Shown: positions 3,946 to 5,328 of the stretch, in pieces
Position numbering within the stretch: the stretch's first letter is position 1
How the letters are laid out: each line of letters begins with the position of its first letter
Source: Candidatus Tectimicrobiota bacterium
Lineage (GTDB): Bacteria; JACPSX01
Assembly: GCA_016193065.1 (NCBI GenBank)
Contig: JACPSX010000072.1
Coordinates: forward strand, 1-5,328
DNA: 5,328 nt
Direction: 5' to 3'
Made by a program: the position numbers and the translations under genes
Notes under the pieces: model-generated
Database searches by the model: none
Seen by the model: only the letters and a program-made list of their open reading frames with translations
What the model was told of the DNA's origin: nothing

Positions 3946-4422
3946 CTACTCGGCGCCTCCGGCAAAACCCCCGAGCAGCGCCCCGTAGACCGCGTGGGCC
4001 AGCAGAGAGGCCATGACGGCCATCAGGCCCCCGGAGTTGGCGCTGAAGAATCCCCCACCCATCATCGGAGTGACGGCCGCCTGGGAGAGGAACCAGAGGA
4101 CGAGACCCAGGAGGGTTCCCCTCATCCAGGACGCGCCGGGCAGCAGGCGATAGGCGGCATAGACATAGACCAGCGGGAAGATGATGCTGCCGTTGATGAA
4201 ATGCATCAGCATCCCCAGCAGCCAACTGCCGCCGAGGACGCTTCCGAGCATGGCGGCTACATCCATCGGCCGGCCCAGCATCATGGGGGCGACGAAGTAC
4301 ATCATCATGGTCATGACGGCGGTGCCGTTGAATCCCCCGAGGATGGCCGTCGGCAGGGCGGGGTGTGTCGAACCGCTTGCGGCCGAGGACCTGGAAGCGG
4401 AGTTCGTAAGGACTTGTTGCAT
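3946..4422 (-). CDS. Small multi-pass membrane protein, DUF6789-like
   Basis: A 158-residue, Gly/Met-rich hydrophobic protein with about four membrane segments, near 27-49, 60-94, 103-121 and 131-153. After a polar Ser/Ala-rich leader (1-22) come GGFNGTAVMTMMMYFVAPMMLG (first helix, 29-50), HFxxG (74-78), PMMGGGFF (119-126) and HAVYGALLGG (143-152). The layout of small helices with spaced His and Pro-Met-Met-Gly motifs resembles the uncharacterised family DUF6789; I assign it from memory of that pattern and no biochemical role is known to me. The start at ATG 4422 is well supported by AGGAGGG 7 nt upstream; the stop is TAG at 3948-3946. The frame is intact, in contrast to both neighbours. It runs in the same direction as the DedA gene, 172 bp apart, and is divergent from the sigma gene. 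Confidence 0.8.
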   Translation of the reverse strand: MQQVLTNSASRSSAASGSTHPALPTAILGGFNGTAVMTMMMYFVAPMMLGRPMDVAAMLGSVLGGSWLLGMLMHFINGSIIFPLVYVYAAYRLLPGASWMRGTLLGLVLWFLSQAAVTPMMGGGFFSANSGGLMAVMASLLAHAVYGALLGGFAGGAE

Positions 4423-4607
4423 GTGTTTTCCCTCCTCATTTCGGTTGAGAGCGGGCGGCCGGGGCCCGGGGCTTTCCTCCCCGTGGTGAGGTCCTGGGTT
4501 CCGGCGTTTCCATTGATAAGATGAAGCAGGCGTGCAAACGATTCACCTCAGCGAGGACAAAGGGGGAGGTTTCTGCTAGTGTAGTGTCCCAGGAGTCCCT
4601 TGACTCA

Positions 4608-4640
4608 TCGTTCGTGGTGAGCTTGTCGAACCATGAACGA
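4608..4640. repeat. Internal hairpin of the MITE-like element (left)
   Basis: TCGTTCGTGGT (4608-4618) pairs with ACCATGAACGA (4630-4640), 11 bp with one mismatch, around an 11-nt loop containing GAGCTTGTCGA. On the other strand it reads TTCGACAAGCTCACCACGAACG. As I recall, GTTCGAC-AAGCTCA-CGAACG hairpins of this type are common dispersed repeats in bacterial genomes; that recollection is unverified here. Confidence 0.6.
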
Positions 4641-4655
4641 AACCCGTTGAAAACG

Positions 4656-4716
4656 CTTCGCCCTTCGACCGCGGGTACCCGCGAAGCGGGTGCGGCTTCC
4701 GGGTGAGGGCGAACGG
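4656..4716. repeat. Internal nested hairpin of the MITE-like element (right)
   Basis: TTCGCCCT (4657-4664) pairs with AGGGCGAA (4706-4713). It resembles the left hairpin read in the opposite direction (TTCGAC ... GCGAACGG), but its loop is enlarged by about 35 GC-rich bases. These carry CGCGGGTACCCGCG (4670-4683) and ACCCGC-GAA-GCGGGT (4677-4691), so alternative foldings compete. The loop may be a secondary insertion into an ancestral hairpin. Confidence 0.5.
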
Positions 4717-4854
4717 AATTGTAAAGAAGCGTTGGGGACACTACACTAGAATGCCGGAAATTCTTCCGATCGCGAGAACTGAAAGTCCAGGTTCCGGGTT
4801 TTGACTGGAGAGAGGGAACTCCCGGCACGCCGCCAGCGGAGGAACTGAGGGTCG

Positions 4855-5270
4855 ATGAACCAGCGATCCGCAATAGACCGGAGCTCTGATCGAGGCCGTC
4901 AAGAGACTTCAGAACGGAGACAAGAGCGCCTTGGAGGTGATCCTAGCCCAATGCCAGGAGCGCCTCTACTAGTACGCCCTGAGAATGACCGGGGACAGCA
5001 ACGACGCCCAGGAGGTGCTCCAGGAGGTCTTCCTGACCGTCCTGGAGAAGATGCGCACCTTGCGGGAGCCGGGATCCTTCCTCCCCTGGGTATTCACCAC
5101 GGCGAAGAATCTCTGCTACCTGCTCGGTCGCCGCGGTAAAATCCAGGTTACACCGGGCGCGCCTGTTTGTGCGAGAGATTCTCTCTCGGTACCTGAGGGA
5201 AGGGAGCAGCCGGAAAGACGAACGGGAGCGGGGAAGAGTGCTTAACCTTGTGAAAAAAGCCTGGACCGCT
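4855..5270 (+). pseudogene. ECF-type RNA polymerase sigma factor, multiply disrupted
   Basis: ECF sigma factors direct RNA polymerase to stress or envelope promoters through regions 2 and 4. ATG 4855 has GAGG 4 nt upstream and reads MNQRSAIDR. The frame then must move +1 near 4880 to give ALIEAVKRLQNGDKSALEVI and AQCQERLY. TAG (4970-4972) interrupts it, where CAG (Gln) is the simplest ancestor. It continues YALRMTGDSNDAQEVLQEVF and FLPWVFTTAKNLCYLLGRRG, a good region 2. Near 5131-5136 it jumps +1 again into VKSRLHRARLFVREILSRYL (5136-5195), the end of a region 4 helix-turn-helix. The linker and most of region 4, roughly 70-80 residues, are absent between GRRG and VKSRLHRA. Without region 4 and with a nonsense codon, a functional factor is unlikely. 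The last frame stays open past 5270, so the original stop is not visible. Confidence 0.8.
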
Positions 5271-5328
5271 ATGCGCTGCCGGATGGTGATGCCCGGGGGG
5301 ATCAGTTGCGAGGCACTGAACCAACTGC
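5271..5328 (+). CDS. Possible start of an anti-sigma (zinc-finger) protein, cut by the window edge
   Basis: From ATG 5271 the frame gives MRCRMVMPGGISCEALNQL and runs off the window. Anti-sigma proteins with a zf-HC2 domain often follow ECF genes and begin with a Cys followed by a short helix leading to a YLDGEL-like motif; ISCEALNQL would fit, but the diagnostic part lies outside. ATG at 5283 or 5289 are equally possible starts, and no clear ribosome site is seen. The same frame is open back into the sigma region 4 remnant, so a fusion tail is an alternative. Confidence 0.25.
   Translation, partial: MRCRMVMPGGISCEALNQL

Follow-up and report, generated by a model that had tools for sequence, protein, structure and literature searches.

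REP palindromes are among the commonest bacterial repeats, and insertion sequences of the IS630 family are Tc1/mariner-like. Both miniature IS630 elements (MITEs) and REP doublets are already known. RUP of Streptococcus pneumoniae and Correia/NEMIS of Neisseria are listed as IS630-derived (PMC2817692), and inverted REP pairs are described as REPINs and RAYT-associated doublets (PMC3116915, PMC2817692). According to the part of PMC2170065 that cites Tenzen and Ohtsubo 1991, IS630 of Shigella prefers the TA in CTAG. In the sections of PMC3733652 that deal with it, the CGTC class of REPs is reported without a dedicated transposase and the authors leave open its movement by other transposases; CGTC-1 dimers of H. 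neapolitanus lie inside 41-bp palindromes, GTAG-15 dimers of A. variabilis also lie inside palindromes, and these sections treat the enclosing palindromes as targets without naming them transposon ends. Here, we identify one REP-enclosing palindrome as a pair of IS630 ends, show that three end families of a single genome house one hairpin pair, and add its spread across phyla.

The window (the whole stretch of 5,328 nt analysed here, from a Candidatus Tectimicrobiota bacterium) carries a segment at 4576-4749 between two divergent genes, DUF6789 (3946-4422, minus strand) and a sigma-70-like fragment (plus strand). A sequence-only reading had taken this segment for a 174-bp element with perfect 15-bp ends, a fold-rich non-coding interior and two hairpins related to a TTCGAC-type repeat in opposite orientation. 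The anatomy was borne out: the arms (4576-4590 and 4735-4749; 15 nt, 100% complementary, 144 nt apart) are the only perfect arm pair reported within 4200-5328, the segment is non-coding, and its strand folds at -87.4 kcal/mol compared with -57.2 +/- 4.5 for shuffles (z -6.76; 0/200 as good). The 174-bp segment stands, but the element proper is shorter, 4579-4746 (168 bp), because the TA dinucleotides flanking it are the target duplication, with an outer C and G completing CTAG. Its parts are as follows.

4577-4578, no strand: left TA of the target-site duplication (C4576-TA-element), from the flank counts and from the gpmA frame described below, which is restored only when one TA is removed
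4579-4608, plus strand: left transposon end, GTGTAGTGTCCC followed by subterminal ...CTTGACTCAT, aligning with L048
4609-4639 (approximate), minus strand: REP-like hairpin 1, TTCGTGGTGAGCTTGTCGAACCATGAACGAA, a paired stem in the fold with copies elsewhere in the same genome
4640-4656, plus strand: spacer with GTTGAAAACGC, conserved in the alignment with L048, L060 and L062
4657-4717 (approximate), plus strand: REP-like hairpin 2 with an enlarged loop (CGCCCTTCGAC...GAGGGCGAACGG), with near-identical genome copies
4718-4746, plus strand: right transposon end, the 3' end of an IS630-type transposase gene, whose C-terminus is common to L095, L134 and L132
4747-4748, no strand: right TA of the target-site duplication (element-TA-G4749), from the flank counts

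The segment is almost certainly a miniature non-autonomous IS630-family transposon, i.e. about 30 bp of IS end on each side with a REP-like pair in the place of the gene. It falls within the 70-300 bp of an IS630-derived MITE and retains just the final codons of a transposase ORF: 4720-4749 (TGTAAAGAAGCGTTGGGGACACTACACTAG) reads CKEALGTLH*, the 3' end of a transposase gene of the type found in the complete element L132, and the left end resembles that of L132 (GTGTAGTGTCCCGTAAATAACTTGACATAT). It is like RUP and Correia/NEMIS in its short non-coding form, IS630-type ends and TA duplication. It differs from them in its end sequence and in its interior, an inverted pair of REP-like hairpins of its host (~30 and 61 bp) that is also found in other terminal-repeat families.

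Two neighbouring genes in the window are irregular. An in-frame TAG (4961-4984, LY*YALRMTGD) interrupts the sigma-70-like gene shortly ahead of the listed ORF 4985-5245, and this ORF also stops early; the gene is a pseudogene or reflects an assembly error. The TRAP transporter DctM gene (1611-2874) is split into two frames, 1611-2654 and 2227-2874, by a frameshift or an assembly error.

We scanned 84,980 species genomes for the ends, using the pattern GTGTAGTGTCC, a gap of 95-155 nt and GGACACTACAC. Further copies, which the earlier reading had proposed to look for, were found at 27 loci, in MAGs titled Elusimicrobia, Nitrospinota, Acidobacteria, Deltaproteobacteria, Nitrospirae, Methylomirabilota, Lentisphaerae, Planctomycetota and others; all the material compared was metagenome-assembled. 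The window's own genome has one full copy and two partial relatives; together with the 27 loci, the element is present in multiple copies. In the 28 elements, window included, which were selected by requiring the ends and the size range but not the outer bases, the left outer flank is CTA in 25 and CCA in three, and the right outer flank is TAG in 25 and TGG or CAG in the others. Every exception is one transition away from CTA/TAG. Matches to CTAGTGTAGTGTCC occur in 21/22 genomes with end loci, and the reversed control pattern gave none. The ends lie in unrelated gene neighbourhoods and, in other phyla, also enclose unrelated interiors. A plasmid search with the 174-bp DNA found no relatives, and the viral contigs held no complete MITE with these ends. 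A cargo-free palindrome, two back-to-back GTGTAGTGTCCC ends in CTAG, is present at L104 (G066:C1:21859-21897) and is the smallest possible element with such ends.

Parts of autonomous relatives were seen in viral contigs, and a complete one in L132. Contig breaks are typical at multi-copy IS, and several viral contigs end ~126 nt inside a copy of the window-type ends, in stubs that encode transposase N- and C-termini: in L095, the C-terminus ...FVWTASVERIISKVAKCKEALGTLH* reads into the right end, and in L076, MSRVAAPIILSAEERTTLAAWS directly follows the left end. L132 is a complete element, with ends TAGTGTAGTGTCCC and TATTGTAGTGTCCC ~1.14 kb apart and a TA on both sides; it shares GTGTAGTGTCCC on the left and TTGTAGTGTCCC on the right with the window. 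Its ORF of 369 aa is an IS630 family transposase (E 2.5e-85) with a DDE_3 domain, and terminates AKCKEALGTLQ* within the right end. In L095 and L134 the transposase terminates CKEALGTLH*, as in the window, within this right end, and L134 has a CTAG flank. The full-length IS with the same termini that the sequence-only reading had called for therefore exists, and its classification of the segment as a non-autonomous transposon is upheld by this IS together with the 27 loci and their CTA/TAG flanks or one-transition derivatives.

The transposase of L132 is 54-60% identical to those of the annotated, plasmid-borne IS630 relatives ISAzs31 and ISRjo2, whose outer ends also begin CTAGTG.... The CTAG target and TA duplication are common to ISAzs31, ISRjo2, the Shigella IS630 and the window element, which differs from the other three in having no transposase gene and in its ends, which read GTGTAGTGTCCC. 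In the window's own assembly, which is 86% complete, we found no matching transposase and no autonomous copy with the window's ends. Its sole DDE_3 hit is an IS630-family IS, L128 (G000:C24), which was rejected as the partner of the window element because its ends, CTAGTGCACTGAC, are different. The L128 transposase is 318 aa long with a DDE_3 match only at positions 79-145, as if the catalytic domain were partly missing.

The target was resolved at L051, where an element interrupts a phosphoglycerate mutase gene (gpmA). Joining the flanks minus one TA gives ...VAYL|GDPEKVEEAARAVAAQ... in an unbroken gpmA frame, which matches solved mutase structures and TIGR01258 (positions 2-244/245) without interruption; removing CTAG in place of TA would break the frame. 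The target is thus CTAG with the TA duplicated, in agreement with the flanks of nearly all copies. The earlier reading had left the duplication as TA or CTAG and had proposed to settle it from empty sites in relatives. The choice falls on TA within CTAG, through an empty site deduced from a reading frame in another organism rather than observed as an allele. When the joined flanks were compared by BLAST with the fetched loci, the only matches were to L046's own right flank, and among these loci the gpmA frame of L051 alone was informative. At the window locus, the empty site would be expected to read CTGCTAGAATGC. The reading was to be abandoned if neither a second copy nor an empty site came to light; the 27 loci and the gpmA frame speak for it on both counts.

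The interior proved to be a repeat of the genome at large. Hairpins 1 and 2 carry the core TGAGC..GTCGAA / TTCGAC in opposite orientation, and the core pattern TTCGACNNGCTCA has 79 matches in the window's own genome, where the reversed pattern has 2; most of the 79 lie outside the window element, and many form +/- pairs with a start-to-start spacing of 62-63 nt. This agrees with the earlier suggestion of a composite in which a REP-like repeat sits between transposon ends. Hairpin 1 recurs at many further places in the genome with 94-97% identity. Other copies of hairpin 2 are 93-100% identical and lie in three terminal-repeat contexts, family A (ends GAGACTGTGTC), family B (ends CAGGCTGCTGAAAAA) and family C (the window's ends), in or beside which 54/76 examined cores were located; that the pair is housed in two further families goes beyond what the sequence-only reading had seen. 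The enlarged-loop variant, i.e. the window's hairpin 2, is found in all three families (A, B and C) and once on its own, and hairpin halves have therefore been exchanged between families; in the alignment, the relatives C151 and L048 have a short loop.

Outer inverted repeats with a score of 8 or more flank 16 of the 26 REP pairs picked blind to their ends, where 0.53 are expected from shuffled flanks (a pairing-swapped control was contaminated by same-family pairs), although a few of these scores are due to a surrounding CCCTC/GAGGG palindrome and not to transposon-like ends. Because family copies share descent, the 16 are not independent events, and a count of distinct end families is a better gauge. 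A search for an IS behind families A and B gave no match, and their ends are accordingly putative transposon ends.

Several further arrangements were seen around these repeats. In the window's own genome, family A elements (e.g. L149, L152, L158 and L196) lie inside the loop of another palindromic repeat, CCCTCnCCC...GGGnGAGGG, with possible direct repeats at the junctions in L158 and L149 (CCTTG and CCTCAGG). Also in this genome, two unrelated hairpin repeats have loops expanded, at an identical position, by small palindromes centred on GGGTACCC (L148, L156, L164, L179, L184 and L188), suggesting that palindromes grow through template switching or through insertion targeted to loops. On a viral contig (L282:11728-11878), a CAGGCTGCTGAAAAA-ended mini-element surrounds another inverted hairpin pair (CCCTTCGAGACG.../...CGTCTCGAACCATG).

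Outside this genome, and again beyond the earlier reading, the same composite was found in MAGs assigned to other phyla. By alignment, L048, L060 and L062 keep the window's ends, both hairpins and the spacer GTTGAAAAC, with L048 83-84% identical to L060 and L062. G062 has ~12 family-C matches, several of which are composites sharing one hairpin type, and many-copy composites occur in both G062 and G060. Other family-C elements enclose other hairpin pairs: the interiors of L046, L047 and L055, judged by eye against the description in the relevant sections of PMC3733652, share the CGTC REP layout (TGTC/CGTC start, AT-starting stem, CCA tail, head-to-head dimers). Where those sections describe palindromes around such dimers, one is here a pair of IS630 ends. 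The window's hairpins read TTCGTGGTGAGC.../CGCCCTTCGAC..., with CGTCC in some copies, and differ in stem and tail from the described class (8-9 bp stem, CCA tail). CGTC-type pairs in G071 and G074, picked by interior alone, have outer repeats scoring at least 9 in 7/14 cases, with 0.06 expected; the search matched no transposase to their several distinct end sequences (GGGAGYGTTGAAAAA, GGTAGTGGKACAG, GGGAGTGGTGGAAA and TGTTGAAAAAGT), which are thus, like those of families A and B, candidate transposon ends. G071 also has short tandem arrays of REP-like units (L232-L236), with the half-unit AAAGGCTCACCATGAGCGGTT repeated as if one arm had been amplified.

Could the hairpins be the resident structure, and the transposon ends be illusory? 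The nested inverted symmetry, and the folding of REP pairs as one long hairpin as for REPINs (PMC3116915), would suit a long REPIN or REP cluster whose outer arms are merely the outer layer of a host palindrome; as with REPINs and RAYT-associated doublets (PMC3116915, PMC2817692), there is an inverted hairpin pair in many copies per genome. We regard this as highly improbable. An IS630 element with the same target, L132, terminates in these outer ends and so refutes the idea for the ends, and the same ends enclose unrelated interiors in other phyla. The doublets here also differ from REPINs and RAYT doublets in lying within DDE-type terminal repeats. Two Y1_Tnp genes matched in the 86% complete assembly, and their fetched flanks contained no REP core, i.e. 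a Y1 transposase flanked by the same REP, as a RAYT would be, was not found there. It is hardly more credible that the segment is a structured RNA or a bidirectional terminator between the DUF6789 and sigma-factor-like genes, retained for its function. The very stable fold, the intergenic position and the divergent genes would fit, but these ends recur in other phyla and in neighbourhoods unrelated to this one, the fold is accounted for by transposon anatomy, and a structured RNA was rejected when an Rfam search of 4576-4749 returned no family match.

A more serious alternative, if still an unlikely one, is that the ends are those of a transposon and the REPs came late: REP-like units, either mobilised by a Y1/RAYT-type enzyme or duplicated through gene conversion or template switching of a polymerase, would have entered or replaced the loop of a resident MITE or of a bare two-end palindrome. 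Such a palindrome exists at L104, in the window's own genome hairpins often lie within the loops of other hairpins, two Y1_Tnp genes are present, and the long-loop variant occurs in three terminal-repeat contexts and once alone with its halves exchanged. Against this, the Y1_Tnp flanks fetched are free of the REP core, and the ends, both hairpins and the spacer are conserved together in MAGs assigned to other phyla, with many-copy composites in G062 and G060; this conservation and copy number indicate that cargo and ends travel together. The evidence does not distinguish capture of the pair at the birth of the element from an entry of REPs into resident MITEs afterwards. Literature searches found no paper accounting for the end sequence or the REP core.

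We therefore return to the miniature IS630 transposon with a REP passenger. By analogy with its family, an IS630-type transposase supplied in trans would excise the element at its ends, and the excised element would insert at the TA of CTAG and duplicate the TA. The REP pair would be a passenger that took the place of the transposase gene on capture, and further copies of the same REP may at times have overwritten it. That the window's own genome has a single complete copy counts against this reading, and transposition within that genome is therefore presumed. That copy looks like a resident relic, given that the 86% complete assembly yielded no matching transposase and only two partial relatives are left, and the element is probably inactive there now, as the sole IS630 found has other ends.

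More generally, CGTC-type REPs likely ride inside MITEs of DDE transposases. We put forward more tentatively, as a possibility somewhat short of an even chance, that transposase-less REP dimers (CGTC-class and TTCGAC-core) spread mainly as interchangeable passengers in many unrelated DDE MITEs, with their halves swapped between the MITE families of one genome and with carriage between phyla by the MITEs. If so, the passenger model would explain the movement of such REPs, and the palindromes that enclose REP dimers, so far treated as targets, would be reinterpreted as transposon ends. REP pairs within IS630 ends, with the target and transposase type known and an empty site restored, offer a concrete, testable vehicle for such repeats.
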